NCBI RefSeq assembly: GCF_026130545.1 | Contig: NZ_JAMOIM010000012.1 | Coordinates: 1 to 64,000, forward strand | Direction of reading: 5' to 3' | From: Lichenifustis flavocetrariae | GTDB taxonomy: Bacteria; Pseudomonadota; Alphaproteobacteria; Rhizobiales; Beijerinckiaceae | DNA: 64,000 nucleotides | In this document: positions 7,397 to 27,235 of the stretch, one piece after another | Position numbering within the stretch: the stretch's first letter is position 1 | Layout of the letters: every line of letters starts with the position of its first letter | Notes under the pieces: generated by a model | What the model was told of the DNA's origin: nothing | Database searches by the model: none | Seen by the model: only the letters and a program-made list of their open reading frames with translations | Position numbers and translations under genes: made by a program

Positions 7397-8127
7397 GCAG
7401 CCTTCACGCGGCCCTTGGCGTCCGGTCTCAATCGGAACCGCTTAACGGGCGGGTCTCCCTCGGCACGCGGTTCCGCCTCGAACAGCTTCTCATGGTCTTC
7501 GCGCATCAGGATCTTCTTCCTGATCGTGGCCTCCGTGAGGGGCTCCACATGGAACCTCGCCTCGCGACGCAGTCCCTCGTCCAAATCGACGAGCATCTCT
7601 TTGGGGGTCTTCCACTCGTTGGGCACCATCAGACCCGCGATCTCAAGCACGACGCGATCCCAAAATTCTTCGGACCGACGCCGTTGGAGGAGCTTCTCGG
7701 CCCTCAATTCCTTGCGCAACGTGACGATCTGCACACTCATTTGTCCGGCCACCGCGAGGTGGCCGTCTGCCAGGGCAAGCGCTTCGTTTCTGAGTTCGAA
7801 GGCGTAGCGCCGCTGCGAGTCAAGCTTCTCGATTTTTGAATCGAACTCCGCCCTGATCTTCTGCGTCGCCCTCTTCCAAATGAGCATCAACCTCAAGTCT
7901 ATCTTCTGATGTTCTTCCAGCGCGAATCCCTTCCTCGCCAGCCTGAACTCGATCCTCTGATCCTTCCAGCGCTGCAACGACCGGCCCACGTCACGGTGAG
8001 AGCCACCGTTGGGGAGGGCCTGGATCAACGTTCGTATCGACACGTCGCCTTCCTCGCCGAACAACCTGTCGGCAAGCGGGAAGATCGCTTTGTCCTTCTT
8101 CTCGTCCTTTTTCCTGTTCTCGGCCAT
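7393..8127 (-). CDS. KfrA-like DNA-binding protein with coiled coil
   Basis: 244 residues. Residues about 28-62 (VSIRTLIQALPNGG...VGRSLQRWKDQR) resemble the winged-helix N-terminus of plasmid KfrA-type proteins. It is followed by a long highly charged helical region (about 75-150), probably coiled coil, and a basic C-terminus (RFRLRPDAKGRVKAA). KfrA proteins repress their own promoter at inverted-repeat operators, and a 19-bp inverted repeat lies 64 bp upstream of this start. It is first in an operon with the DUF429 gene. The family link is moderate; a plain DNA-binding coiled-coil protein is the fallback. Confidence 0.55.
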   Translation of the reverse strand: MAENRKKDEKKDKAIFPLADRLFGEEGDVSIRTLIQALPNGGSHRDVGRSLQRWKDQRIEFRLARKGFALEEHQKIDLRLMLIWKRATQKIRAEFDSKIEKLDSQRRYAFELRNEALALADGHLAVAGQMSVQIVTLRKELRAEKLLQRRRSEEFWDRVVLEIAGLMVPNEWKTPKEMLVDLDEGLRREARFHVEPLTEATIRKKILMREDHEKLFEAEPRAEGDPPVKRFRLRPDAKGRVKAA

Positions 8128-13819: not shown

Positions 13820-14566
13820 ATGAGCCATTCCGACCCATTCGCGTCTCTGACGCCCCACACGCCTTTCGACATCCGACGCCGCAAGGCGCGCCTCGTCGTG
13901 TCCCCACGTGGCGGCCCGATCCGGCTCATCATCACGGGCCGCAAGGTCATCCCCACGGGCCGTTGGTACTCGACGAAGAACGGTCGCTGCATGCCTTGGG
14001 AATCGAAAGCCGAGCGTGACCTCTGCATCGTCGCGGAAGCCGACACGGACGTGATCCGTTTCCTCGTCCAGCCGCACAGGCTCGAAATCGACGTCGGCGA
14101 GGCGCGTCCGCTCGTCTACATCCCGGATGCCGAGCACGTTCTTGCCTCCGGCGTGACCGAGATCATCGAGGTCAAGAGGGCGGGCGAAAAGCTCGAACCT
14201 GACTACGAGCGCAAGCTCGAACTTGCCGCCGAGATCTACCGAGGTCTCGGGTGGCGGTTCCGGATCATGCGTGACGCCGAGATTCGGCGCGAGCCGAGGT
14301 TCCCTAACGCGAAGATCATCGCGAGCCATGGTCCGACGCTCGTCACGTCCGAGGAGACGCTGGCGGCCTTGGACTTAATCGATCGTCCAGGCGGTTCGAC
14401 CTACGGGTGCGTCGGGGACGTCCTCGGCGGCGGTCCTCAGGGCGTCGCAAGGCTGCATGCGTTGGTCGTTCGTCGGTTGCTCACCTTCGATCTCGATCGC
14501 CCGATCCGATCCAATATTCCCGTGACGCTGGTCGCGGACCACCCCGACCGCCGGAGGCCCGCATGA
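13820..14566 (+). CDS. tnsA: TnsA-like transposon endonuclease
   Basis: 248 residues. The restriction-endonuclease-fold N-terminal domain shows PWESKAE with Glu61, YIPDAE with Asp103 and EIIEVK with Lys119, the Glu/Asp/Lys triad with which TnsA cuts the 5' strands at the transposon ends. This makes cut-and-paste rather than replicative transposition likely. A C-terminal helical domain (about 190-235) would contact TnsC. GGAGGGCAGG lies just before the ATG. The stop overlaps the tnsB start (ATGA). First gene of a four-gene tns operon. Confidence 0.85.
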   Translation: MSHSDPFASLTPHTPFDIRRRKARLVVSPRGGPIRLIITGRKVIPTGRWYSTKNGRCMPWESKAERDLCIVAEADTDVIRFLVQPHRLEIDVGEARPLVYIPDAEHVLASGVTEIIEVKRAGEKLEPDYERKLELAAEIYRGLGWRFRIMRDAEIRREPRFPNAKIIASHGPTLVTSEETLAALDLIDRPGGSTYGCVGDVLGGGPQGVARLHALVVRRLLTFDLDRPIRSNIPVTLVADHPDRRRPA

Positions 14567-16794
14567 TCTCGCTCGCCCTCTCTGTCGGCGACCTCGTCGA
14601 AATGGATTTCGGCGACCGGATCGCCCGATTCCGGACCAGCAAGGAGCTGGATGGCTCGCGCATGCTGTTCCTGCGTGAGGATACCGACGGGGAGATCATC
14701 CTCCCGGAGCGGCAGATCGAGGAAATGGTCGGCTCCGGAGCGTTCCGCAGGCTGCGCCGGCACACCACACGGGCTGGTCGGCCCTCTTCCTACGACAACG
14801 ATGACGCCGTCCCGCCCGAAGGCGCCAGCCTCCCTGCGCAGACGAGGTGTTTCTACGTACGCCAGTGGGACAAACAGCCGACCGCTCTCAGCACCAAGGC
14901 GCTCGAAGGATTCATCGAACGAAACCGCCCGATCGCCGTGAGGAAGGGCTTCACCTGGGAACCCAGCGCCGGAACTCTTCGCCGCGCCATCAACGAGCGC
15001 GGGGAGAGTGGATCCAGGCCTGTAAAGGTCATGGAGAGAAGGACCGGCAGGGTACCCCGAGCCCCGAGACATGGCATCCTGGCCGGCGAGATCATGCGCC
15101 GAACGGTCGCTTGGTTTTACGCCGCTCGCCCCCGGACGGTGACCGACGCTCACGCCCGCCTCGTCACCTTCACGGACCGCGTGAACCGGTTTGGCCGTAG
15201 GGCCTTCTTGGCCTGGGCTGAAGTCACGCTGCCGCACAGGGAAACCACACGCCTCCGCATCCGAGCGGGGGAGTGTTACGACACTTTGGCCGCGAAGTTC
15301 GGACCAATCGAGGCCAAGAAACTTCTCGGCACGGGCCCGGGCCTGTCAGCCGACAAGATCCTTGAGGTCGTGCTGATCGACTCGACAATCGGCGACGCTT
15401 GGATCTTCGACGCCGAACGCAGTCTGCCACTCGGGCGCCCGACCATCACGGTGGCGATCGACGTGTATTCGCGCATGGTGCTCGCCATCGTCGTGACCTG
15501 GGAACCGCCGTCGCTCTACACGATCGGCCAAGCGCTGTACCAGACGTGCCGGCCGAAGCACGATTGGCGTGAGCACTTCCCGAACCTGACGCGCGACTAT
15601 GATGCGTGGGGTAAGCCCGGCACGATCATCGTCGACAACGCCTGGGAACAGGTAGGCGTCAGCTTTCAAGACGCCTGCGAGGACGCCACGATCTCGGTCG
15701 ATTGGGCGCCTGTCGCCAATCCCGAGTACAAGGCGATCGTCGAGCGGTTCTTCGGGACCCTGAACACCTTGGTGAACCATCGGTGCAGGGGAGGTGTACC
15801 GTTCCCTCCCCACCTCATGCAGAAGCTCAAGATCAATCCTGCCAAGGAGGCCATCGTCGAGCTGGAAGACTACAAGGCGTTGCTGCACCAAGCCGTCGTT
15901 GAGACCTACCAGACCGAAGTTCACACGACGCTCGGGAAGGCTCCCGCGCTGGCCTGGCGCCAGTCCAAGGCCGTGCATGGCCGTGCGTTCATCGACGACC
16001 TCTCTCAAGTTCGAACGATGGTTGGCGCGCTCGCCCGCGCGAAGCTGCGCCGGGACGGCGTCCGTGTCCGAGGCCACCGGTTCCACGACCAGGACGCGAC
16101 CACGCGCCTCCTCGATGACCTCGCGCACCACACCCCCATGCGCCAGCGCCCGAAGGGAGGCGCCACCGCGGCCATCAAGGTCAAGTACGATCCGGCCGAC
16201 TGCTCGTTCATCGACGTCTGGAATCCCGTAGCGAAGAACTATGAGCGATTGCCGAACGTCGACCGGCGTTTCGCGACGGGATTGAGCTTCAGGAACGCGG
16301 ACGTGATCCGCGAATGGGCTCAGGCCGAGAACAAGGCTTTCTTGAGCGACGAGGAGAAGTGGGCCGCGCGCAACGCGCTCCGCTCCTCCATCGAGCGTGC
16401 CACCGCCGGAAACGCTCGGTACGGCTTCATCCGCAAGGCGCGCCGCATGCTGCATCCACCGAAGCCCATGTCCGGCGACACGGTTGAATTCGTCACCGCG
16501 ATGCCCACCGCCGCTGGCCTCGGCCCGACCGACATCGAGGTACGCGTCGCCATGCACACGCGCGACGACGACGGCATGCCCGAGATCGGGCCGCAGCGGG
16601 GCAACCGCAAGAAGCCGAAAAAACCTCGGAAGCCGGCCGCAGGTTCGTTGGAATCCGCAGCGGCGGAGCCGGATGAACTCCGAAGGCAGACAGCAGATAC
16701 ACGGCCGCCCGCATCCGGCTTCGGGTTCGATGCGGACGAGATCGAGGCGGCTTCCAACCTCGATTGGGTGACCCGAAAGGACAATGGCCGATGA
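14563..16794 (+). CDS. tnsB: TnsB/TniA-family DDE transposase
   Basis: 743 residues. An N-terminal DNA-binding region precedes the rve integrase core with catalytic Asp273 (IDST), Asp358 (IVDNAW) and Glu394 (VERFFGTLN), a DD(35)E arrangement. After it come a Mu-type C-terminal beta-barrel (about 500-580) and a charged tail that probably contacts TnsC. It binds repeats in the transposon ends and joins 3' ends to the target. The start at 14563 is fixed by GGAGG 5 nt upstream and the ATGA overlap with tnsA, although the frame is open from 14407. The stop overlaps the tnsC start. Confidence 0.9.
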   Translation: MISLALSVGDLVEMDFGDRIARFRTSKELDGSRMLFLREDTDGEIILPERQIEEMVGSGAFRRLRRHTTRAGRPSSYDNDDAVPPEGASLPAQTRCFYVRQWDKQPTALSTKALEGFIERNRPIAVRKGFTWEPSAGTLRRAINERGESGSRPVKVMERRTGRVPRAPRHGILAGEIMRRTVAWFYAARPRTVTDAHARLVTFTDRVNRFGRRAFLAWAEVTLPHRETTRLRIRAGECYDTLAAKFGPIEAKKLLGTGPGLSADKILEVVLIDSTIGDAWIFDAERSLPLGRPTITVAIDVYSRMVLAIVVTWEPPSLYTIGQALYQTCRPKHDWREHFPNLTRDYDAWGKPGTIIVDNAWEQVGVSFQDACEDATISVDWAPVANPEYKAIVERFFGTLNTLVNHRCRGGVPFPPHLMQKLKINPAKEAIVELEDYKALLHQAVVETYQTEVHTTLGKAPALAWRQSKAVHGRAFIDDLSQVRTMVGALARAKLRRDGVRVRGHRFHDQDATTRLLDDLAHHTPMRQRPKGGATAAIKVKYDPADCSFIDVWNPVAKNYERLPNVDRRFATGLSFRNADVIREWAQAENKAFLSDEEKWAARNALRSSIERATAGNARYGFIRKARRMLHPPKPMSGDTVEFVTAMPTAAGLGPTDIEVRVAMHTRDDDGMPEIGPQRGNRKKPKKPRKPAAGSLESAAAEPDELRRQTADTRPPASGFGFDADEIEAASNLDWVTRKDNGR

Positions 16795-17810
16795 CCTCCC
16801 AAACCGAACGCCTCCTGAATTCCGGAATCGCTTTCCAGGAGATGCTGGTCATGCATCCGCGTCTCACGCAGACGCATCAGCGTCTCGACGAACTGCGGGC
16901 GCTCGGCCGCGCCACCCGAGGCAAGCCGCAAAAAATCCTGCCGATCATCGGGCCATCGGGTTCGGGGAAGACGACGAACTTCAAGACCTGGAGGGATGGC
17001 GTCGCAACCAGCGTACTCCCCGGCTCCAACAGTCCGCCGGCCATCCTCCACGTGACCTTGAGCGCGAAGTGCTCGGTCAAACAGCTCGGGGCCGACATCC
17101 TGCAAGCGCTCGGCCAGTTCGGACTGCCGGTCGACATCGTCGACGACCTCCGAGGTCGCCAGCGCGGGCGGAGGACGCGTCTTATCGACCCGTTCCACGA
17201 TCTCAAGGACGCGGTGTTGATGTACGCGGCGGCGGTCGCGCTCGACAACGCGGGGATCGAGTTGCTTGCCATCGACGAGTTGCACCACCTGATCGACAAG
17301 GACCAGAAAGGCAAGATCGCCTGGACTGTCAGCGAGGCGCTGAAGGTACTTGCCGACATGGGCGTCTGTCCCGTCGCCGTGATCGGGACGTCGACGGCGA
17401 TGCGGATCGTGTCGGCGAAGAACAACCCGCAGTTCGCGGCGCGTTGCGCTGCCCCCGTGATGCTCGACCCGCTCGACATCACGCTGAAGGGGGATCGAAC
17501 GCTGTTCATCGGCTACATCGCCTCCCTGTCGAAGCTGCTCATCAAGCATGGGGTCTTCGACGAGGATCAGGGCCTCACCCGAGAGGATTTCGTCGCCTGC
17601 TTCTACGACGTTTCCAGGGGCGTGGTCGGGACGGTGTCACGCCTGGTCGACAACGCCTCCGCGATCGCCATCAGGGAGGGCAAGGACAGGATCGGGCGCG
17701 AACACCTAAGCGAAGCCACGCGCACTTGGGCGATGCCCATGGACCTCACGGACCACGATCCTTGGATGAAGGGGCCGCGTGACCTCAAGCTTTTGAAAAA
17801 GGTGCATTAG
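16791..17810 (+). CDS. tnsC: TnsC/TniB-family AAA+ ATPase
   Basis: 339 residues. Walker A GPSGSGKT is at 54-61 and Walker B is in LLAIDELHHL, followed by a sensor stretch (VAVIGTSTAM) that places it in the TniB/TnsC group. TnsC forms filaments on target DNA, links the TniQ target selector to TnsAB and mediates target immunity. The start is fixed by the ATGA overlap with tnsB and by GAAAGGA upstream. The stop is one base before the tniQ start. Confidence 0.9.
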   Translation: MTSQTERLLNSGIAFQEMLVMHPRLTQTHQRLDELRALGRATRGKPQKILPIIGPSGSGKTTNFKTWRDGVATSVLPGSNSPPAILHVTLSAKCSVKQLGADILQALGQFGLPVDIVDDLRGRQRGRRTRLIDPFHDLKDAVLMYAAAVALDNAGIELLAIDELHHLIDKDQKGKIAWTVSEALKVLADMGVCPVAVIGTSTAMRIVSAKNNPQFAARCAAPVMLDPLDITLKGDRTLFIGYIASLSKLLIKHGVFDEDQGLTREDFVACFYDVSRGVVGTVSRLVDNASAIAIREGKDRIGREHLSEATRTWAMPMDLTDHDPWMKGPRDLKLLKKVH

Positions 17811-17811
17811 A

Positions 17812-19698
17812 ATGCCTGGGAGCACTTTGCAGTCGTTCGAGACCGTGGAGGGATGCGGGACGCTGCCATGGAGCCGTTCGCCCATCCCGGGTGAATCGAT
17901 CATGGGCCTCCTGGCGCGGACGGTTGCGCATCACGGCATCGACCGCATCGCACCGGTGTTGCGGATTGCCGGCATCGACACCCTCTTTCCGGAAGCGCTC
18001 CCGACCACGCACCGGAAAAAGGCTAAGGCCATCGCCGCCCTCCTCGGCACCACGCCCGACGAGGTCAAGCTCAGATGTCATCAGCCTATCGACGTCCCCG
18101 GCCGGCCGAACTCGTTCATGAATTTCTTTGGCACGCCGATCCGAGAACACTATCGGGAGGCGAGACGCCGTCGCTTCTCGCCGGCAAGTCTCGCCACAAG
18201 CCCGCACCATCGCGCCCTCTGGGACTTGAAGGTCTTCTCGTTCTGCCCCGAGTCCAGGGAGACGCTCATCTCGGCCTGTCCGCACTGCGATGCCAAACTC
18301 GGATGGCGGTGGACGGTCGGCATCGCTTCTTGCGAGCACTGCGGAGAAGACCTGCGCGACGCGTCGACGTCCAAGGTAGAGTGCGTCGATTGGGAAGCGC
18401 TCGATTTCCTGGTCGACCTCATTCATCCGGACCCGGCGCGGCGAACGCGGGCTCATCGCAGCCTCCCGCACCCCTTGTCTGGGCTCGATAACGGCGAGGC
18501 GTTCGAGGCATGCATGGCGTTGGCTTGCGCCTCAACGTTCGCATCCGATGCACCCGAGAAACGGCTGGTCCGCTCCACCGGGTTTGCCGCCGTCACTCCC
18601 GACGCGCTCGCGTGGGGTGGTCGGACCATCTTGGAGTGGCCGACGAGCTTCCAGGCTTGGGCCGGTGTCGCCGGCTTGGCACGCCCGGATCAAGGCATCC
18701 TCAAACGGCGCCTTGGAATGCTGGCTCGATTGTTCGCCGATCCTTACCTGGCACCTGCATTCAGGGAGCAGATGCGTCGCGAGTTGGGCATCGAGATTTT
18801 CAGGTTTGGCTTGAAACTGCGCCGACCTCATGTGCGTCGCCCTTCCGATAAAGGGCGTGTCGCAGGAGAACCGTATGTACGGCAGTCGGCGGCTCCAGGG
18901 CGGTCATCGCTCGAAAAGCCACCGATCCCCAAGAGGGGTGCCGCGAAGTTGCCGGTGGTGCGCCGCGCCAAGATTGGCCGCAACAAGATCGCGATGCAAC
19001 TCGGGGTGGACTGCCTGACCGTCGCGCGGCTAGCCGACGCCGGCTTGTTCTCACGTGTCGACGGCGCCTCTGCGTGGTCCAAAGCGGGCGAGGCCTATGA
19101 TCGGTCGAGCGTCGATGCCTTCGTCATGAGGGCCAGGGGCGCCATCCGCGCAAACCCTGAATCCTGCGACGCGGTGCCCCTCGCCATTGCGGCAAGGCGC
19201 CTGCCTACCGCCGCACCGTGGGTCGGAATCTTCCGCGCCATCCTGGTCGGCGCCCTCGAAGTTTACCCTTGCGACGGCGAGGGAGAGCGCGCCCTTACGT
19301 CGGCGCTGAACGTCGTGGAGTGGCGGCTCCGCGACTTGGTGTCATCCGTTCCGCCCGAAGTCGTCCTGACGCCCAAGGGGCAGCACGTCAGCCTGAGGGA
19401 GGCTGCGGCGATGATCGGCGTCACGGTCTCGATCGTGCAGTCCATGGTCGAAGATGGACTGCTGATCAACGACCCTGCAACACGCCGCCTACGGACGGCC
19501 GACGTCATCGCGTTTCGCTCCGCCTTCATCCTGTCCGGCGAGGTCGCACGACTCCTCGGATATTCTGGCAGCGTCCGAGAAGTCCTCTTCCATCAGGGTG
19601 TTTCCCCCGCAGCGACCCTTCAGCGTGGCGAAATTGCCTTATGGCGACGGGAGCAGGTGGAGGTGGCCATCGGCCCTGCAAGGCAGAGATGCGCCTAA
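17812..19698 (+). CDS. tniQ: TniQ/TnsD-family target-selection protein
   Basis: 628 residues, in the size range of TnsD rather than short TniQ. The N-terminal TniQ domain (LPWSRSPIPGESIMGLLAR) is followed by a zinc ribbon (SACPHCD...ASCEHCGED, about 158-185). The C-terminal half has several helix-turn-helix-like stretches (NKIAMQLGVDCLTVARLADAGL; SLREAAAMIGVTVSIVQSMV; GEVARLLGYSG). Long forms of this family bind a specific attachment site and recruit TnsC. No Cas genes are present, so a protein-read attachment site is expected. The stop codon lies in the first repeat of array A. Confidence 0.88.
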   Translation: MPGSTLQSFETVEGCGTLPWSRSPIPGESIMGLLARTVAHHGIDRIAPVLRIAGIDTLFPEALPTTHRKKAKAIAALLGTTPDEVKLRCHQPIDVPGRPNSFMNFFGTPIREHYREARRRRFSPASLATSPHHRALWDLKVFSFCPESRETLISACPHCDAKLGWRWTVGIASCEHCGEDLRDASTSKVECVDWEALDFLVDLIHPDPARRTRAHRSLPHPLSGLDNGEAFEACMALACASTFASDAPEKRLVRSTGFAAVTPDALAWGGRTILEWPTSFQAWAGVAGLARPDQGILKRRLGMLARLFADPYLAPAFREQMRRELGIEIFRFGLKLRRPHVRRPSDKGRVAGEPYVRQSAAPGRSSLEKPPIPKRGAAKLPVVRRAKIGRNKIAMQLGVDCLTVARLADAGLFSRVDGASAWSKAGEAYDRSSVDAFVMRARGAIRANPESCDAVPLAIAARRLPTAAPWVGIFRAILVGALEVYPCDGEGERALTSALNVVEWRLRDLVSSVPPEVVLTPKGQHVSLREAAAMIGVTVSIVQSMVEDGLLINDPATRRLRTADVIAFRSAFILSGEVARLLGYSGSVREVLFHQGVSPAATLQRGEIALWRREQVEVAIGPARQRCA

Positions 19699-19819
19699 AT
19701 CAGGCTTAGCTTGGGGAGACCTGAATCGGTTTAACTTTGGCTGGCTGAATCAGCTTTATGTTGGATGTCTTGAATTCAGTCATCCCCTCAGAGGGTTAGG
19801 TGAATCACCCTTGGCTTGT
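19695..19819 (+). repeat. TnsB-type repeat array A
   Basis: Four matches to a 20-bp site of consensus NTGAATCA-N5-T-N-A-N2-TTGG begin at 19695 (overlapping the tniQ stop), 19721, 19745 and 19800 (last one degenerate), at spacings 26, 24 and 55. Array position immediately after tniQ and the repeat form fit TnsB-binding sites of a transposon end. Confidence 0.7.
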
Positions 19820-19887: not shown

Positions 19888-20922
19888 CTAGACCGAGCAC
19901 GCGATATACGGGTTCGCTTCGGTCGTCAGAAACATTTCGCGGATGCGATGACCTCCACTCTCCACCAGCGAACGCGCCATGTTGGGCAGCTCCGCGATGG
20001 CCCTGTCACTGTCGTCCATCGCTATAGGATTCGGCGACTCAGGAGCGTCGAGCCGCATCACCTGGTCCTTGCCGACCAGAAGGAAAGCCTGCCCTAGCGC
20101 ATTCAGGGACTGCGCCTTCATCGCCCCCCGCAGCGCGTCACGCCACTGCCACATGCCGCCAGCCGAGCGGTCTTCGGAGACCTGGAACGAGGATTCGCCA
20201 CAGCCCAGGCTCAGGATTTGCACCTGCCGCCGGTCAATGTCGAAACAGGCCAAGGCGTCCACCAAGCCGATCATGATCGGATTGTTCGCCCATAGACCGC
20301 CATCGATCAGTTCGTAACCAAGTTCTTTCAGCGACCGAAAATAGGTTGGCGCCGCCGACGTCGCTCGACCGACCCTGACCATCTTCTCAGACCGATCCTT
20401 CTTGTAGTCGGGGTGGTGAGGCGTCTTGTAGACCCACGGCTCGCCGTGCCGGCCTTCGAAGGCCGGAATGCAGAGCCGCGTCGTGGCCTCGCCGAACAGC
20501 TTGTGATCGAATACGCGAAGCAGTTCCTGCTCCAGTATGTCGGCATCGTAGACGGCCGCGACCGTGCGCTTGGCTTTCTTGAACAACCCCCTCGCAGCGC
20601 CGCTTATCCCCTTGGTTGGGAAGATGTTGGGCCCGCGCTCGATGTAGAAGTCGCGCAAACCCTTGCCGGTCATTCCCGAGGCGAGACCCATCGCGATGAG
20701 GCCGCCGGTGGAGGTGCCGGTGATCATGTCGAAATGGCTCGCGACGGATTTGCCGCCCAGGAAGCGGCCCTCGATCTCAGCGAGGATGGAAGCCGGCAGG
20801 ATTCCGCAGATGCCACCTCCGTCAATGGAGAGAATGCGGAACGGCCGCTCCGGCGACCAGGGCTGTTGAACGCGGAGGTTTTGAATCGTGCCGTCAGAGC
20901 GGCGGGGGGGCATGTAGTTCAT
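19888..20922 (-). CDS. capV: CapV patatin-like phospholipase, CBASS effector
   Basis: 344 residues. The oxyanion loop is DGGGICG (34-40), the nucleophile Ser71 lies in GTSTG and the catalytic Asp in the later DGG (YELIDGGLWANNP), i.e. a complete Ser-Asp dyad. CapV is a cyclic-dinucleotide-activated phospholipase that degrades the inner membrane and kills the infected cell. The ATG at 20922 overlaps the E2 stop (ATGA); a longer in-frame start at 20991 is less likely. Third gene of the leftward CBASS operon. Confidence 0.88.
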   Translation of the reverse strand: MNYMPPRRSDGTIQNLRVQQPWSPERPFRILSIDGGGICGILPASILAEIEGRFLGGKSVASHFDMITGTSTGGLIAMGLASGMTGKGLRDFYIERGPNIFPTKGISGAARGLFKKAKRTVAAVYDADILEQELLRVFDHKLFGEATTRLCIPAFEGRHGEPWVYKTPHHPDYKKDRSEKMVRVGRATSAAPTYFRSLKELGYELIDGGLWANNPIMIGLVDALACFDIDRRQVQILSLGCGESSFQVSEDRSAGGMWQWRDALRGAMKAQSLNALGQAFLLVGKDQVMRLDAPESPNPIAMDDSDRAIAELPNMARSLVESGGHRIREMFLTTEANPYIACSV

Positions 20923-21389
20923 CGGGGCGCTCCGGTCGGCAGTTGCTGGGGATGGCGGCCTCCTCCCGTCCACGTCCCGGTCGCGCGCCATCCTTCATAA
21001 CAGGCGAGCCAGTCGCTCGTGTAAGGGACAGTCGTTCGGGACAGTAGGTCGGCAGGCGTCCACTCCGTCGTGTCGGGATCGAAGAGGCAGAGAATCGGTA
21101 CAGGTTCTCCCTCCACTCGGTAGACGTGCGGCAGGTCGCCCTCGGGATCGCCTCGACGTGGCGCCAACCTGGGGTTCAGCACTCGAACCCGGGGCTGCAT
21201 CGAGAGCAGATCGATGCGTTCGAGCACCGTTGGCACGCGGTAGCTGATCGCGACCGTGTAGGTCCGCATCAGCGGCTTCAACGTGCCGCGCCAGATCGCG
21301 GAAGGGCCCTCTCTCTGCATGACCTCGAACGACGGGAAGTCCGATTTCAAGGCAGCGATCTGGTCATCGATGTCGGGGAAGATCCTCAC
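20919..21389 (-). CDS. Stand-alone E2-like protein of CBASS
   Basis: 156 residues from a GTG start that overlaps the CD-NTase stop (GTGA). The proposed catalytic Cys101 lies in VPILCLFDPDTTEW, followed by the block VPYTSDWLACYEGWRATGTWTGGG, the conserved signature of prokaryotic E2-like proteins found beside CD-NTases. In type II CBASS, E2 activity conjugates the C-terminus of the CD-NTase to cell components and primes it. No E1 or JAB partner is present, so this is an E2-only (short type II) system. There is no ATG start in frame, which makes this gene easy to miss. Confidence 0.85.
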   Translation of the reverse strand: MRIFPDIDDQIAALKSDFPSFEVMQREGPSAIWRGTLKPLMRTYTVAISYRVPTVLERIDLLSMQPRVRVLNPRLAPRRGDPEGDLPHVYRVEGEPVPILCLFDPDTTEWTPADLLSRTTVPYTSDWLACYEGWRATGTWTGGGRHPQQLPTGAPR

Positions 21390-22645
21390 TTCAGGAGCCC
21401 GCCCATGAAAGTGTGGGCGCGCGCGGGCGCCGCCGTGGCGGCCGTTGCCGTGGCCCCGGTGATGATAGCGGGCCGGCTCGGGACGAAGACTGAACCACGG
21501 CCCGTGTGCGCATGCCGTCCGTGCTGCACGGCGCCTCCGATACGCTCGTTGAAGAGCTTCAGGCTTCGCGAGACGACGTGGTTGCCGAACATGCCGCGAA
21601 GGACCTCTCTGAGTTCCTCCTGGGACATCTCGCTGCGCTGGGCGAACTCGATGGTGTCGCCGAGGTCCTTCACCTTCCGACGCCACTCCTCCTGGTCAGC
21701 GATGGTCGCCGGCCAACGGTCGGTGAAGACGTCCCGTGCGAACACGGGGTTCGCGACATGAAGCCGATCCCGGCGGCTGGTTGCCGCGGCGATCTCCCGC
21801 TCGATCCAACGGCAAAGCCGCACCAGCATGGCGGACAGGCTGAGCCCCGGCGTCGCGGCGCGACCGGCATAGTAGGAAAGCATGACGGAGGGAGGGACCC
21901 GTCCGGCGTAATCCGCATATTGCACGTTGCGGAACCGCTTCAGGAGCTGAAGCGCCACCGTGGCGGTGTTCTTCGCGATGAGCGGCGTTTGATCGGGAAC
22001 CTTGTCGTGCTCGGCATCGGCTCGGAACTCCATGCCGCCCGACTCATAGTACCTGCGCGCAAGCTCGAACGCGAAGTTCCACTCCATCGGGGTGTTGGCG
22101 CGGTACCAGACCGCGAATCCGTGGGCGTTCATGGGAACGTGAAAGTGATCTGCCCTGGGCTCCTCGCGCTTGGCGTGGAAGATGTGGCTTTCGCGCTCGC
22201 CGGGCGTGTTCAGCCGTGACGACGGCGTCACGTCGATGTGCATCCCGTCCGCATAATAGATGGTGACGCAGCGTGTCTGTCGGACGATGGCCCTCTCGAC
22301 GGGGTAGCCCTCCAAAGCCTGTTCGAGGAGGTCGAGCGGCACGTGCGGCGCGATGAGCGGATCGACTGACAACTGGGCCACGACATCGATGTCGTATTCG
22401 TCGTCGGTGCCACGGGTCGATACCGTGGCGTCGATGGCCATGCTGCCCTGCGGCGTGAAGCGCAGCACCCTGCCTTCCAGGGGGCTGCCGGGGCGTTCGA
22501 TGTAGGCCCGGACTGACTCGTCCCGCTCGCAGGTCTTCGCGTGAAGGCCCGGCGGCAGTTGCACGTTGATCGCGATATCGGCAAGAATCGCGTCGAGCGG
22601 GTGCAGGAAGGGATTCGAGGGTGGGTGGGAAACCAGTCTGTTCAT
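21386..22645 (-). CDS. CD-NTase (cGAS/DncV-like nucleotidyltransferase) of CBASS
   Basis: 419 residues. The nucleotidyltransferase motif GS is at 67-68, the metal-binding Asp85 and Asp87 are in DEYDIDVV and the third Asp138 is in MHIDVTPS, so it looks active. It would make a cyclic oligonucleotide when phage infection is sensed, activating CapV. The C-terminal tail (ATAATAAPARAHTFMGGLLK) is low-complexity and exposed-looking, a plausible E2 target. AGGAG lies 7 nt before the ATG at 22645; the frame is open to 22669. First gene of the CBASS operon; divergent from the sigma-like gene. The clade is not assigned. Confidence 0.88.
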   Translation of the reverse strand: MNRLVSHPPSNPFLHPLDAILADIAINVQLPPGLHAKTCERDESVRAYIERPGSPLEGRVLRFTPQGSMAIDATVSTRGTDDEYDIDVVAQLSVDPLIAPHVPLDLLEQALEGYPVERAIVRQTRCVTIYYADGMHIDVTPSSRLNTPGERESHIFHAKREEPRADHFHVPMNAHGFAVWYRANTPMEWNFAFELARRYYESGGMEFRADAEHDKVPDQTPLIAKNTATVALQLLKRFRNVQYADYAGRVPPSVMLSYYAGRAATPGLSLSAMLVRLCRWIEREIAAATSRRDRLHVANPVFARDVFTDRWPATIADQEEWRRKVKDLGDTIEFAQRSEMSQEELREVLRGMFGNHVVSRSLKLFNERIGGAVQHGRHAHTGRGSVFVPSRPAIITGATATAATAAPARAHTFMGGLLK

Positions 22646-22699
22646 TCGACAACTCCTTTCGGGCCACATGCGGAGCGCCCGATTGGCGTTGCATCAGAA

Positions 22700-22792
22700 C
22701 CGTCACCACCTTAGGCGCTGCTGCGGAAGCCACGCGGACATGCGACTTCGATGTCCGCGTGAAATCTTCTACGGCGCCTAAGGTGGTGACGG
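22700..22792. promoter_or_regulatory. 93-bp palindrome between divergent CBASS and regulator operons
   Basis: Outer arms of 19 bp (22700-22718 and 22774-22792, core CACCACCTTAGGCGC) and inner arms of 11 bp (22731-22741 and 22751-22761, CACGCGGACAT) share one symmetry axis at 22746, with a partly paired 12-nt stretch between them on each side. It could be two nested operators or a long RNA hairpin in the leader of the sigma-like gene, whose ATG is 19 nt away. Confidence 0.75.
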
Positions 22793-22811
22793 CAGGGACA
22801 AGGATTCCCTG

Positions 22812-23405
22812 ATGTCCGATTCCGCACTCGGGTCCCCTGAAGGCGACCAGGACGAAGCCGAAGCGCTGACTCTCGAAGAGGTGCGAGTCGCGATTGAGCA
22901 TCTCGGGCCAGCGGACATGCTGCGTCTCGCGAAGGCGGCGGCTCACTTCGAATACAGGAATGGGCGGCTTGCCCGCGACTTGAGGCAGGAGGCGTTCGTC
23001 CGAGTGCTCGACGGTCGGCGCAAATGCCCCCGGAACGTGAACTTGGCCTTGTCCCTCTCCAACGTCATGCGCAGCATAGCTTCCGAGAGGGACCGGGAAG
23101 CAGAACATGCCGACATCGACGAGATGATCGCTGCCGACTCGCTGGAAGCCGGGTCGATGAGCGGAATTGGCCCTGATCTGCTGGAGCAGGTCAGGGGAAA
23201 GCTCGATGGCGAACAGCTTCTGAGTGAGGCGCTCCGCCTCTTCGAGGACAATGAAAGGGCGAAGACGATGTTCGAGGGAATCATTGAGGACATGGAAGGC
23301 CAGGAGCTGCGGGAGCTGCTCGGCGTATCCCAGGTCGAGTTCGATACGTTGCGCAGATTGGTGCGGCGGCGGCTGGATAAGCATTTCCGAGACCGGAAGT
23401 CATGA
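22812..23405 (+). CDS. Sigma-70-like regulator divergent from CBASS
   Basis: 197 residues. The middle (RDLRQEAFVRVLDGRRKCP...LSNVMRSIASERDRE) follows sigma region 2 of ECF-like factors, and the C-terminus (LRELLGVSQVEFDTLRRLVRRRLDKHF) the region 4 helix-turn-helix. An acidic linker joins them. It could be a true sigma factor or a DNA-binding protein built from sigma domains. It is the first gene of a three-gene operon (ATGA overlaps) ending in an ImmA/IrrE peptidase. Position opposite CBASS suggests it controls that operon. Confidence 0.7.
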   Translation: MSDSALGSPEGDQDEAEALTLEEVRVAIEHLGPADMLRLAKAAAHFEYRNGRLARDLRQEAFVRVLDGRRKCPRNVNLALSLSNVMRSIASERDREAEHADIDEMIAADSLEAGSMSGIGPDLLEQVRGKLDGEQLLSEALRLFEDNERAKTMFEGIIEDMEGQELRELLGVSQVEFDTLRRLVRRRLDKHFRDRKS

Positions 23406-23839
23406 CCCGGGATCGAACCAGCGACGATACAAAGAAGCTCGCCAATCTCGACAAGTTCGTGGAGGAGCAACTGTTCGCAACCACGGACGAGGAACTGCTG
23501 CGAGAAGCTTCGGAGGATGGCATCGATCTCACGAAGCTGAGGAACGAGCACCTTGCGTCGCTGAGCGAAGCAGGCAAGGTCGCGGGCCGCAACAGGCAGG
23601 CGGCGATCCGAGACGAGATGGCTCGCGACCGCGCCAAGCCGCCAGCAGTTCTGGACCTCAACCGGGCGCGCTCGAAGTACGAGCAATTGCTGGCTGGAAA
23701 CGACAATGCCGCGACGCGCATGACGATGGCGGCCCGGAACCAGGACGGTGATGCAGAAGCCGACATGGACGGCATGTTGGAGGACTTCGCAGAGCTTGGA
23801 CTCATCAAGGATGCGGACAAGGACAAGCCTGGGCCATGA
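23402..23839 (+). CDS. Small acidic helical protein between sigma-like and peptidase genes
   Basis: 145 residues, mostly helical and charged, with an acidic C-terminal tail (DGDAEADMDGMLEDFAELGL). No domain recognised. It is coupled at both ends by ATGA overlaps. It might be an anti-sigma, an adaptor or the peptidase substrate; this is guesswork from position only. Confidence 0.65.
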   Translation: MTRDRTSDDTKKLANLDKFVEEQLFATTDEELLREASEDGIDLTKLRNEHLASLSEAGKVAGRNRQAAIRDEMARDRAKPPAVLDLNRARSKYEQLLAGNDNAATRMTMAARNQDGDAEADMDGMLEDFAELGLIKDADKDKPGP

Positions 23840-24663
23840 GCCTGTCGAGGGCGGAGGCGATCCTTGAGTCGTTGGGCATCGACCGTCCGGAGGACATCGA
23901 CCTTGAGATGGTGGCGTGGAGCCTGGGAGCAAAGGTCAAGTACCGGCCTCTCTGTTCGTGCGAGGCTCGGATATGCGGCCATGGGAACAAGGCGATCATC
24001 ACCGTCGACGACCGGAAGAGCGCTCGGCGCGTGCGCTTCTCGCTCGCCCACGAACTTGGACACTGGACGCACCATCGGGAACGCTTGCTGATCTGCCGTT
24101 CCGTGGACATTGGCAAATCCTCGGGATCAAGACGGGACGCCACCGATCCGGAGAAGGTTGCAGACCGTTTCGCTTCGGAACTGATCCTCCCCTCCTACAT
24201 CCTGCACCCGATGTTGAAGGGCTACAGGACGCTCAACCTGAAAACCATGCGAGAGGTCGGATCGGCGTTCAATGCCAGCCTGACGGCGACCGCCATCCGC
24301 ATCATGCAAAGCAACACGTTTCACGCGATGATCGTCTGCCACCGGCCTGGCAAGAAGCCGTGGTTCGAACGGGCCGACTGCGTGCCAGATCGTTGGTTTC
24401 CGAAAGCCACGCTCGACTGCGAGAGCTATGCGAAGGAGGTTCTCGCCAACAAGACGGAGCAGGTCCACCCGAGGAAGATCGGAGCGGACGCTTGGTTCGA
24501 TCGTCCCGAGGCGGAGCGCTACGAAGTCTCGGAACAGTCGTTTCCGCTGCCGAACAACGAGGTGCTCACGCTGCTCACCTTTTCCGATCCAGCTATGATG
24601 GAAGAGCAAAGGGAACGGCGCCAGTACGGTCTGTCGATAGACCCAGCCATACGCGTTCGCTGA
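23836..24663 (+). CDS. ImmA/IrrE-family metallopeptidase (CapP-like position)
   Basis: 275 residues. The zinc motif HELGH (72-76) and the downstream Glu in RFASELILP are those of DUF955 ImmA/IrrE peptidases, which cleave a cognate repressor on stress signals. In characterised CBASS loci the peptidase CapP cleaves the repressor CapH and switches CBASS on. Here the likely partner is the sigma-like protein or the small protein in the same operon. A Cys-rich loop (CSCEARICGHG, 40-50) is unusual and could sense redox or metal. Confidence 0.82.
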   Translation: MSLSRAEAILESLGIDRPEDIDLEMVAWSLGAKVKYRPLCSCEARICGHGNKAIITVDDRKSARRVRFSLAHELGHWTHHRERLLICRSVDIGKSSGSRRDATDPEKVADRFASELILPSYILHPMLKGYRTLNLKTMREVGSAFNASLTATAIRIMQSNTFHAMIVCHRPGKKPWFERADCVPDRWFPKATLDCESYAKEVLANKTEQVHPRKIGADAWFDRPEAERYEVSEQSFPLPNNEVLTLLTFSDPAMMEEQRERRQYGLSIDPAIRVR

Positions 24664-24675
24664 AACAGGTCTTTT

Positions 24676-24838
24676 CATCCCCTCAGCGGGTGTCCGGCAC
24701 AGAACGGTTGCCGGGGTGAATCAGCAGTATCTTGGCAGCCCTGAATCAGTTTTGTCCTGTGCAGTCGAATCAATTCTGTCTTGGAGTTTGCGAAAGCGAC
24801 TTGTCGTCAGGCATTTGAGCGAATCAGGCTTGACTTGG
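24676..24838 (+). repeat. TnsB-type repeat array B
   Basis: Sites begin at 24716, 24741, 24765 and 24819 (spacings 25, 24, 54) and match the array A consensus. They are preceded by TCATCCCCTCAGCGGGT at 24676, a sequence also found in array A at 19780 with one change. The near-identical spacing shows that arrays A and B are copies of one end. Confidence 0.7.
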
Positions 24839-24956: not shown

Positions 24957-26372
24957 ATGCCGAACTCGAATCTGTCGGAGCTTGTGAGCGGCAAGAGCGA
25001 AGACCTGAGCGTCGAGTACAAAGCTTGGATGGACACCACCCAGGGTCCAGTCCGTGCCAAATTGGCGAAGCACATCGCTGCGCTGGCGAATCACGGTGGT
25101 GGCTACCTGATCTTCGGCGTCGACGACAAGAGCCGTCTCCCCCAAGGCGAACCCGGCCCTGGGCTCGATCGCAGCATGTTCTCCCAGGACGCCATCTCCG
25201 GAATCGTCAAGAAGTACCTCGATCCCCGCATACAGGTCCGCCTGGAAGAAGCCAGCCATGACGGCGTTCTGTACCCTGTGATCGTCGTGCCTTCGCATGC
25301 CGGAAGGCCGATCATAGCCGTCACTGATGGGCCGCAGGAGAACAATCGGCCGGTCGGCGTTCGCCAAGGGGAGATTTACGTCAGGGCTGCTGGGCCCGAA
25401 AGGGCCCAGATCCGCTCCGCCGACGACTGGAACGCATTGCTGGATCGGTGCCTGACGCACCGCGCGGATCTTCTGGGCAATATCGTCCGGCAAACCATCG
25501 CACGACCGGGTCGGCCGAGCGCTATCGCTATCGACGCCTTGCTGGAGGCGGTGGAGGCCACCGCCAGTGACTTCTCCGAGCAGACCGGCGAGTTGGCGCC
25601 GCGCGTCGCCGCATCCGACCAGAAGAACATCGCTCAGGCCGGCCAGAACTTCAGTACGCTCGCCTACGCTTTGGTCGGCGACGATGGAGAACTGATCGAG
25701 CTGGGCAATGTTCGTGGCCTCAACCAGCGCGCTTCCATCGCCATGGGTGAGGTGGCCTACATCGGATGGGCCTCGTTCCTGCCGCTGAACGTGCCCGAAC
25801 GAGCCCCCCAGCTCAGGACGGGCCGGCTCCTCGGGCGTGATCGAAGCTATTTGGAAGGCATGCGCCTTGCCGCCAGCGCCGTTATCGGCGGCTCCCTGGA
25901 TTATTGGCGCATCTATGAAACGGGAATAGCGGCGATATCGCAAAGTTATCCGGAGGATAACGGCGGCCTGCGTTCCGGAATCCCTCGCCGCATCGAAGTC
26001 GGCTTTTCGCTTCTTCGCGTGCACTCTCTCCTGGCCCATGCACGATTCATGGGACAGGAAATCCCAGGTGTTCAGCAGATCGTCGTCCGCATGGATTGGC
26101 GAGGGATGGCCGGACGCATGCTGACGTGGGACGAACAGAGGTTTGTCACGCCGGGCCAAGTGGCCGACGACCGTTTTATCCACACGGTCACGCTTCCATG
26201 GGCCCGGCTTCGGGATACGTACTTCGACGCTTTCACCGCCGTCATCATGCCGATGTACAACCTGTTCCCTGAAGCGGGGTGGGGCACTCCCGACCGTTGG
26301 TTCAATCGCGGGGTGGTCGAGCGTGAGTTCGGCAAGTTCAAAACGGGCGGCGTTCGATTGTTTGACGATTGA
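24957..26372 (+). CDS. AlbA_2 (Schlafen-type) domain protein
   Basis: 471 residues. The N-terminal 150 residues (LSVEYKAWMD...IAALANHGGGYLIFGVDD...) match the AlbA_2 domain, which binds DNA/RNA and has nuclease activity in some Schlafen-type proteins. The remaining 300 residues are not recognised and carry conserved aromatic positions (WRIYETGIAA, MDWRGMAGRM). It is a single gene enclosed by repeat arrays B and C, so it is probably an independent cargo gene and a candidate anti-phage effector. GGAGCAGG precedes the ATG at 24957; the frame is open from 24903. Confidence 0.72.
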   Translation: MPNSNLSELVSGKSEDLSVEYKAWMDTTQGPVRAKLAKHIAALANHGGGYLIFGVDDKSRLPQGEPGPGLDRSMFSQDAISGIVKKYLDPRIQVRLEEASHDGVLYPVIVVPSHAGRPIIAVTDGPQENNRPVGVRQGEIYVRAAGPERAQIRSADDWNALLDRCLTHRADLLGNIVRQTIARPGRPSAIAIDALLEAVEATASDFSEQTGELAPRVAASDQKNIAQAGQNFSTLAYALVGDDGELIELGNVRGLNQRASIAMGEVAYIGWASFLPLNVPERAPQLRTGRLLGRDRSYLEGMRLAASAVIGGSLDYWRIYETGIAAISQSYPEDNGGLRSGIPRRIEVGFSLLRVHSLLAHARFMGQEIPGVQQIVVRMDWRGMAGRMLTWDEQRFVTPGQVADDRFIHTVTLPWARLRDTYFDAFTAVIMPMYNLFPEAGWGTPDRWFNRGVVEREFGKFKTGGVRLFDD

Positions 26373-26424: not shown

Positions 26425-26541
26425 CTGAATCGGTACTAACTTGGCCGCCCTAGGATCTGAATCACCCCTAAGTTGGAAATTGAATCACCTCTAAATTGGC
26501 CGCTCAGGGTGAATGAGAATCAGTTTGAACTTGGCACGACA
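26425..26541 (+). repeat. TnsB-type repeat array C and probable element terminus
   Basis: The best-conserved array: sites begin at 26425, 26457, 26480 and 26515, with CTGAATC(G/A)...CTAA(C/G)TTGG cores. It ends with CACGACA at 26535-26541, the complement of a TGTCG-type terminus. Orientation is the same as arrays A and B. The cores match more closely than in A and B, consistent with this being the functional end. Confidence 0.7.
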
Positions 26542-26648: not shown

Positions 26649-27005
26649 TCATTCCCCGTTCCGCCCCGCTCTCGGCGACACCGTCAGGCCGAGGAACACC
26701 ATCACGGCCAGGTTGAGCCGCACCACATCCTCGTCATCCAGCCGGCCGATCCGCTCGCTGGCCTTGGATTTCGGGACGGTGGTGATCTTGTCCACCATCA
26801 GCCGGGAAGGAGCGCGCAGCCCGTTGCGCTCGCTCGGTTCCACCGGCAGCCGGAACAGAGGCGTTTCGGTCGGGTCGGTCGTGAAGGCGCAGACAGTGAT
26901 GGAATCCGTCGCGTCGAAGGCGTCGTCCTGCACGATGACGACCGGGTGCGGCTTGCCCGCATAATCCTTTCCGCCAGAGACGGTCCAGATGTCGCCCCGC
27001 CTCAT
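26649..27005 (-). CDS. PemK/MazF-family toxin
   Basis: 118 residues. MRRGDIWTV...PHPVVIVQDD...DSITVCAFTTDP...IGRLDDEDVVRLNLAVMVFLGL is the full MazF/PemK fold pattern: an endoribonuclease that cleaves mRNA in stressed cells. It overlaps its antitoxin gene by ATGA. It lies just outside the last repeat array, so it may stabilise the island or belong to the chromosome. Confidence 0.88.
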   Translation of the reverse strand: MRRGDIWTVSGGKDYAGKPHPVVIVQDDAFDATDSITVCAFTTDPTETPLFRLPVEPSERNGLRAPSRLMVDKITTVPKSKASERIGRLDDEDVVRLNLAVMVFLGLTVSPRAGRNGE

Positions 27006-27235
27006 TCATTGTCCCAGCCCGACACCGCGTCGATGAACGCCTGATCTTCGGTCGCATGAATGCTCGCCGCCACGGCCAACGACTGACGGTGAGCCTCCGA
27101 ACGGAAGGACGGTGCCCGAACATCCGGCACCCAAATTTGGATCGGCCGCAGTCCCTGCGCGCGCAGCCGATCGCGATGCTCCTGCACCTTCACGCGGGTC
27201 GGCTTAGGGTCTCTTGTCCGCGCCATGACTGGCAA
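27002..27235 (-). CDS. MazE-family (DUF3018) antitoxin
   Basis: 77 residues. TRVKVQEHRDRLRAQGLRPIQIWVPDVR and the SEAHRQSLAVAAS helix are typical of DUF3018 antitoxins that pair with MazF-type toxins. It should neutralise the toxin encoded directly downstream and repress the shared promoter. A second ATG three codons in (27226) is an equally good start. Confidence 0.82.
   Translation of the reverse strand: MPVMARTRDPKPTRVKVQEHRDRLRAQGLRPIQIWVPDVRAPSFRSEAHRQSLAVAASIHATEDQAFIDAVSGWDNE

Follow-up and report, generated by a model that had tools for sequence, protein, structure and literature searches.

The peptidases CapP and PprI/IrrE respond to single-stranded DNA, as set out in two reports (PMC13373217; PMC10904395), and the three families of immune-operon controllers described in the former (2026) act through repressors. 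In the CalpL/CalpT/CalpS system, according to PMC11417357, a protease sets an extracytoplasmic function (ECF) sigma factor free of its anti-sigma factor. Here we describe a locus of Lichenifustis flavocetrariae, lying in the first 64,000 nucleotides of contig NZ_JAMOIM010000012.1 (the window), at which two operons diverge. One, on the minus strand, belongs to a cyclic-oligonucleotide-based anti-phage signaling system (CBASS) and encodes a cGAS/DncV-like nucleotidyltransferase (CD-NTase), an E2-like protein and the effector CapV; the other, on the plus strand, encodes a sigma-factor-like protein, a 145-residue protein and an ImmA/IrrE-type peptidase (the triad), and a 93-bp inverted repeat separates the two. 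Our analysis, which was computational throughout, leads us to propose that the triad is probably a sigma/anti-sigma/protease switch of the neighbouring immune operon. It is predicted to be a sigma-based member of the class of modular immune controllers, identical with neither CapH and CapP nor CalpL/CalpT/CalpS, and to work like both.

As with CapH and CapP, a CapP-family peptidase is encoded beside an immune operon, and an input of single-stranded DNA or DNA damage is probably shared. Unlike that pair, the triad has no helix-turn-helix (HTH) repressor but a sigma factor resembling the ECF type together with a small protein, and the control predicted for it is positive rather than by derepression. 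A plain CapH and CapP pair was rejected because no HTH partner (cro/C1-type) is present: neither of the two genes upstream of the peptidase gene matches an HTH repressor, in agreement with a preliminary description of this locus, made from the sequence alone, which had set the peptidase's partner apart from CapH. The roles of protease, anti-sigma factor and ECF sigma factor that PMC11417357 assigns to CalpL/CalpT/CalpS, a system of type III clustered regularly interspaced short palindromic repeats (CRISPR), are those predicted for the triad. However, the protease CalpL is of the SAVED-Lon type and is activated by cyclic tetra-adenylate (cA4), whereas that of the triad is of the ImmA/IrrE type (Peptidase_M78) and its small protein is a different one; the predicted target also differs, being the neighbouring immune operon, reached through a twin promoter.

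To our knowledge, the PprI/IrrE and DdrO pair of Deinococcus has no adjacent immune operon. It resembles the triad in its peptidase family and in the cleavage of a regulator under stimulation by single-stranded DNA (PMC10904395), but DdrO is a repressor of DNA-damage genes and no sigma factor takes part. Likewise, CapW/BrxR and CapK with CapS are modular DNA-damage regulators that accompany several types of immune operon (PMC13373217), yet they are repressor systems of unrelated proteins, whereas the triad uses a sigma factor. With ECF sigma/anti-sigma pairs the triad has in common a sigma gene coupled to that of a putative inhibitor, an apparently autoregulated promoter and, at the level of the family, the sigma2-sigma4 architecture. 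It departs from them in its promoter consensus, TGTCCG/CGCATA in place of the usual ECF −35 of GGAAC, in its proposed inhibitor, which is soluble, helical and of no known family, and in the proposed release by an ImmA/IrrE peptidase. The open-access literature searched yielded no paper combining CBASS, ImmA and 'sigma factor' and no immune controller that consists of sigma factor, small protein and ImmA/IrrE peptidase; the arrangement, which had not been recognised when the locus was first described, has no description there.

The sigma-like, small-protein and peptidase genes

The first gene of the triad (22,812 to 23,405, plus strand) encodes a 197-residue protein whose family we assign, on family-level profile evidence, to the ECF-type sigma factors. 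A profile of 78 family members finds matches in 208 of 398 genomes, that of L. flavocetrariae included, at E≤0.01 and often across most of its length. It also led to 25 non-triad loci (L117-L141), and all ten of those examined carry Sigma70_r2 together with Sigma70_r4_2. An 11-member profile matches the ECF sigma factor SigH in the PDB at 3.8e-4, and Sigma70_r2 is matched by 18 of the 78 family members. Sigma2 and sigma4 domains are found at the level of the family, the window protein taken alone lying below cut-off. Its AlphaFold2 model is helical (predicted local distance difference test, pLDDT, 87; predicted template modelling score, pTM, 0.58), and the best Foldseek matches of this model are ECF sigma chains in RNA polymerase complexes, with E-values of 0.04 and up, which is suggestive and not decisive alone. 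Since the family is of the ECF type, the protein would be an activator. The preliminary description had offered it as a repressor; given the family and a palindrome that resembles two divergent promoters, that role is probably inverted. Among relatives of the sigma gene, the one at L143 (genome G834) precedes a gene that reads as a DNA cytosine methyltransferase; another, L144, lies in genome G783.

The second gene (23,402 to 23,839, plus strand) encodes the small acidic helical protein of 145 residues, which is present at 74 of the 77 loci with upstream DNA and as a remnant at L032. It matched no family in Pfam, PADLOC or NCBIfam, and profile and fold searches of the PDB came back empty or insignificant. 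The protein is modelled as long helices (pLDDT 85, pTM 0.49), and its net charge ranges from −20 to 0, so that all 78 aligned members are acidic or neutral. An MTMAAR motif (23,720 to 23,737, plus strand) ends in Arg112, which is invariant in all 78 aligned sequences and, besides the start Met, is the only invariant residue of the alignment; a loose form of this LTMAAR-like motif is matched by 61 of the 78. A search for the small protein without sigma factor or peptidase gave, beyond triads, weak matches only, together with one distant pair of small protein and peptidase (L106). Because its gene lies between those of sigma factor and protease, the protein is the natural candidate for anti-sigma factor and substrate, and it appears better suited to the parts of negative regulator and peptidase substrate than the sigma-like protein. 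At L080, an open reading frame (ORF) upstream of position 7815 and before the peptidase gene reads as an HTH protein with VLTMAAR, which resembles the small-protein motif; this may be chance, or it may be a sign that CapH-like partners share a cleavage motif.

The third gene (23,836 to 24,663, plus strand) encodes a CapP-type ImmA/IrrE (M78) metallopeptidase. It matches the PADLOC capP model PDLC04141 at 2.9e-58 (195 bits) and Peptidase_M78 of Pfam, and its best PDB profile match is the solved CapP 7t5t (6.6e-17), which bears out the kinship with CapP drawn in the preliminary description. The zinc-binding motif HELGH can be read at 24,049 to 24,063 (plus strand), and HExxH is present in 81 of 81 triad peptidases.

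In the window the three genes follow one another with 4-nt overlaps, a coupled arrangement. Among 78 loci such overlaps join sigma and small genes in 61 and small and peptidase genes in 43, counts that are biased towards coupling because start codons were set by a rule that gave the small and peptidase genes the start nearest to the preceding stop. When 84,980 species genomes were scanned with an alignment of the peptidase, at least 80 loci came up, and protein profiles find all three genes in order at 74 of the best 80. This amounts to 74 of the 77 at which upstream DNA is present, the contig starting directly upstream of the peptidase gene in L033, L055 and L067, and L037, in whose sigma gene an element has inserted, is counted. 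Three loci depart from the pattern: L032, with its small-gene remnant, L047, and L080, which is without both sigma and small gene. For the motif analysis, 85 triad loci less the near-duplicates L051, L052, L056 and L059 made 81 non-redundant ones; L092 (a second copy of the window), L037 (with its broken sigma gene) and L091 (of uncertain start) had been omitted earlier.

Among the hosts of the 81 loci are 40 alphaproteobacteria, 15 betaproteobacteria, 7 gammaproteobacteria, two Desulfuromonadia and one Terriglobia, with 16 lacking a class label. The triad is sparse, with three carriers among 149 genomes around that of L. flavocetrariae and two clear matches in 385 genomes of its class, its own genome being included in both counts. 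Against 72,556 plasmids, tblastn found the sigma-like protein in 30 records (all at less than 60% identity), the peptidase in 44 and the small protein in 7. Each of ten plasmid loci examined holds all three triad genes together, and on plasmid pDE of the laboratory strain Cereibacter sphaeroides 2.4.1 a triad stands opposite CBASS.

Twin promoter-like elements between the operons

The 93-bp inverted repeat (22,700 to 22,792) has arms at 22,700-22,741 and 22,751-22,792 that are 81% complementary around a 9-nt loop and enclose two promoter-like elements. Its fold as single-stranded DNA has a z of −8.7, and equal stability was reached in 0 of 200 shuffles; the palindrome seen in the preliminary description is real and is not due to chance. 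The best description of it is that a single two-block element is present twice, each copy pointing outwards. The copy towards CBASS (CATGTCCGCG ... CGCCTAAGGT; 22,708 to 22,742, minus strand) scores 22.8 bits with a matrix trained on sigma-side copies and holds the exact pattern at 22,711-22,740; the matching copy towards the sigma operon (22,750 to 22,784, plus strand) also scores 22.8 bits, holds the exact pattern at 22,752-22,781 and ends 27 nt upstream of the sigma start codon. The palindrome of the window arises from the near identity of these two copies across 20 bp.

Two outward-facing copies of such an element, with the consensus TGTCCG, N17-18, CGCATA or CGCCTAA, precede most of the sigma genes. 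The starting motif was picked by eye from a view of both strands, and the two-block weight matrix, trained on sigma-side copies only, settled at gaTGTCCGAa / CGCATAagaa, with mostly 14-15 bases separating the 10-base blocks. At a threshold equal to the 99th percentile of shuffled and unrelated control stretches, the sigma-side copy is found at 66 of the 81 loci and the divergent copy, which lay outside the training, at 64; both reach it at 58 and at least one at 72, and no pair among the 58 shares a base. On sequence evidence alone, a two-block promoter-like element with fixed spacing lies upstream of the sigma gene, as expected of an autoregulated ECF sigma factor. The median distance from element end to start codon is 22 nt on the sigma side and, on the divergent side, 49 nt to the first called gene (n=55). 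At L040, L085, L046 and L068 the divergent start was called inside or beyond the element, and hence some of the divergent distances are gene-calling errors. A single operator for a repressor dimer was rejected, since the elements do not overlap in the 58 two-copy loci and their separation is variable.

The two copies of one locus agree at 14.57 of 20 positions, above all of 2000 permutations (mean 12.18, maximum 12.96; n=56). They have equal spacing in 53 of 56 pairs, with 29.4 expected, and the same fourth base of the second block in 53 of 56, with 28.6 expected. In the 7.5-Mb genome of L. flavocetrariae, TGTCCG-N15..18-GCGCCTAA has two matches, both at this locus, and the reversed-pattern control has one; with only two exact sites, a wider regulon was rejected. 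A shorter consensus gave 19 matches in eight relatives, 11 in triad loci and 8 elsewhere, against two for the reversed-pattern control and a rough chance estimate, higher than that control, of about nine (12 fixed bases, two spacings). Further targets, a few in number, may thus exist in the relatives.

The first block is shifted to CGTCCA, from TGTCCG, on one or both sides at the mostly betaproteobacterial loci L065, L074, L075, L078, L082, L085, L087 and L090, and TGTCCA occurs in L070. The CGTCCA variant is a possible switch of specificity that could be of use for studies of sigma region 4.

Immune operons opposite the triad

In the window, the operon opposite the triad holds a CD-NTase, a Cap effector and an ancillary E2, the constituents of CBASS. 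The CD-NTase gene (21,386 to 22,645, minus strand) matches PADLOC PDLC00800 at 3e-163 and Pfam DncV-like_NTFase at 1.5e-07. It is joined by a GTGA overlap to the E2-like gene (20,919 to 21,389, minus strand; GTG start; PDLC00877, 9.6e-54), which in turn overlaps by ATGA the gene for the CapV-type patatin phospholipase, the effector (19,888 to 20,922, minus strand; PDLC00757, 1.6e-112). CapV also scores 231 bits with the NCBIfam model CBASS_lipase NF041079, above the cut-off of 200, and a longer start is possible at 20,991. Reading and PADLOC together confirm the six genes of the preliminary description in their positions, their overlaps and the HELGH peptidase.

Across the 81 non-redundant triads, genes on the divergent side were called, their proteins clustered and representatives annotated, most families from one or a few representatives. 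A recognised immune operon stands opposite 53 triads. Bub-like multiubiquitin/E1 operons account for 22 and CBASS for 19 (18 by census, L073 by a cGAS match above cut-off). There are seven 6A-MBL operons (L012 and L024 were tested, with both proteins above NCBIfam cut-offs; five were assigned by similarity) and three of the pyrimidine cyclase system for antiphage resistance (Pycsar; L026 was tested, PycC 1.6e-229, and L004 and L021 were assigned by similarity). One operon is Bil-like (L068; BilD 1.1e-19, BilB 2.1e-5) and one consists of an E1 protein only (L064). With 53 of 81 opposite CBASS-, Pycsar- or ubiquitin-like operons, the triad looks like a general controller of immune operons, and a CBASS-specific regulator was rejected, CBASS being opposite only 19. 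The preliminary description would have given up its link to CBASS if such triads occurred mostly without it; taken literally this is the case, but the wider tie to immune operons stands. On the tree of the peptidases, at least 36 switches from one kind of operon to another are needed, against 43-55 in 100 label shuffles, which indicates that partner operons have often been exchanged, though not at random.

Opposite the other triads, 16 have only small ORFs (a 92-aa family, DUF2188, DUF3892), five a 314-aa family, three the 'beta protein' and four nothing recognised. The small ORFs are the only reference-set genes on the divergent side of L002, L006-L008, L016, L018, L019, L029, L039, L041, L042, L044, L045, L069, L083 and L093; at other loci (e.g. 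L003, L025, L028, L040) they stand ahead of CBASS or Bub genes. At L074, L077, L078, L082 and L090 no recognised family but the 304-314-aa one lies under the divergent promoter, and it is a candidate immune gene; its L074 member had no match in Pfam, PADLOC or NCBIfam. The 'beta protein' (PF14350; PADLOC 'beta' at 3.4e-45 for L061) lies under the divergent promoter in L009, L061 and L072.

A proposed sigma switch and its rivals

The mechanism that we propose is drawn by analogy with CapP/CapH, PprI/DdrO and CalpL/CalpT/CalpS. The computation shows which genes are present, their conserved order, the family's ECF homology, the twin promoter-like elements, the association with immune operons and the kinship with CapP, whereas we infer sigma activity, the small protein's two parts (inhibitor and substrate), where it is cut and what triggers the switch. 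The 197-residue ECF-type sigma factor would recognise TGTCCG ... CGC(A/C)TA promoters, of which one copy would drive its own operon and the divergent copy the immune operon, here CBASS. In the resting cell, the 145-residue protein would bind and silence the sigma factor. Infection or DNA damage, probably by way of single-stranded DNA as for CapP and PprI, would activate the CapP-type peptidase, which would cut the small protein; the LTMAAR-like motif, in which the Arg is invariant, may be where it does so. Once released, the sigma factor could fire both divergent promoters, so that immune genes and triad rise together, and self-amplification with new inhibitor restoring the off state would produce a pulse.

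Several observations weigh against this reading. The window sigma-like protein falls under every curated sigma cut-off (Pfam Sigma70_r2 E 0.038, TIGR02937 E 0.0054), and the Pfam region-4 model Sigma70_r4_2 is matched by only one of 78 family members. Foldseek E-values never reach 0.001, TM-scores are low and root-mean-square deviations mostly large. There are sigma relatives without small protein and peptidase (L143, L144) and two peptidase relatives without a sigma gene (L047, L080). Neither element reaches threshold at nine of the 81 loci, six of these betaproteobacterial. The agreement of 14.57 between copies of one locus compares with 13.98 for the copy beside the nearest sigma relative (Wilcoxon p 0.13), and pairs independent of the tree, most of which point the expected way, are too few for significance; the match between copies could hence be explained by shared descent of the intergenic DNA. 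No recognised immune operon faces 28 of the 81 triads, and genes of other defence families lie downstream of the peptidase gene, as discussed below. Finally, the small protein's binding to the sigma factor and its cleavage are predictions.

Some of these points would suit a different logic, in which a degenerate sigma factor binds the DNA of the palindrome as a repressor and is cut, like CapH, by the CapP-type peptidase. The known partner of CapP is a repressor (PMC13373217), the window protein is weak against sigma models and its site is palindromic. We nevertheless consider this unlikely: what is conserved has an orientation, two blocks and sigma-like spacing, and is present twice without overlap and with a variable gap between the copies; both elements lie at promoter distance from a start codon; the ECF sigma factors are homologues of the family; and the small protein, equally conserved, would be left without a role. 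It could also be that sigma factor and promoters are rightly read, with the small protein in the part of chaperone or positive partner and the peptidase switching the operon off by its action on the sigma factor or on something else. The lack of a known fold for the small protein, and a peptidase target deduced from analogy, would allow this; we give it still less credence, as CapP and PprI, as described in PMC13373217 and PMC10904395, remove a negative regulator, and the CRISPR complex CalpL/CalpT/CalpS has the same three roles (PMC11417357).

A further alternative makes the triad an independent mobile stress cassette, for instance of plasmids or transposons, brought beside immune operons through shared defence islands. 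Its sparseness (3 of 149 neighbouring genomes), its occurrence on plasmids and the 28 triads without a recognised partner would agree with such a cassette. So would the genes 3' of the peptidase gene, where a PADLOC scan at 1e-10 (123 proteins, 68 loci) finds GajA, IetS, dCTPase, SoFic, PDC-S13 and a type I specificity subunit; since these downstream genes match other defence families singly, the triads do sit in defence islands. However, no family among the 25 of 132 listed is matched by more than one of the 123 downstream proteins, whereas CBASS, Pycsar and ubiquitin-like genes lie on the divergent side at 51 of the 78 loci where that side spans 1.5 kb or more, and downstream at 1 of 70, in a census whose reference set, it should be noted, was drawn from the divergent side itself. 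Neighbourhood alone would favour neither side. These operons are concentrated on the promoter-facing side despite the defence-island setting, and we regard the independent cassette as very improbable.

If the sigma switch is right, a dedicated sigma factor would bring to immune control a logic different from that of repressors, fast, self-amplifying and silent without sigma, and CapP-type peptidases would be paired with two unrelated outputs. TGTCCG...CGCATA elements beside such a sigma gene would moreover offer a handle on candidate undiscovered immune systems; the promoter-facing 314-aa family, the beta protein, DUF2188/DUF3892 and the 92-aa ORFs would be candidates for new immune systems or accessory immune genes.

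Around the locus, TnsB-, TnsC/TniB- and TniQ-like genes (13,820-19,698), preceded by an ORF that we read as TnsA-like, are accompanied by TGAATCA...TTGG repeats (19,698-19,819, 24,717-24,838 and 26,458-26,534), which flank the block of CBASS and triad on both sides. The block looks like the cargo of a Tn7-like transposon. Directly 3' of the triad, between two of the transposon-end-like repeat groups, lies a Schlafen/AlbA_2 gene (24,957-26,372; PF04326, 8.1e-12), and beyond it, at 26,649-27,235 on the minus strand, are two adjacent small ORFs that resemble a toxin-antitoxin pair of the MazF/PemK type.

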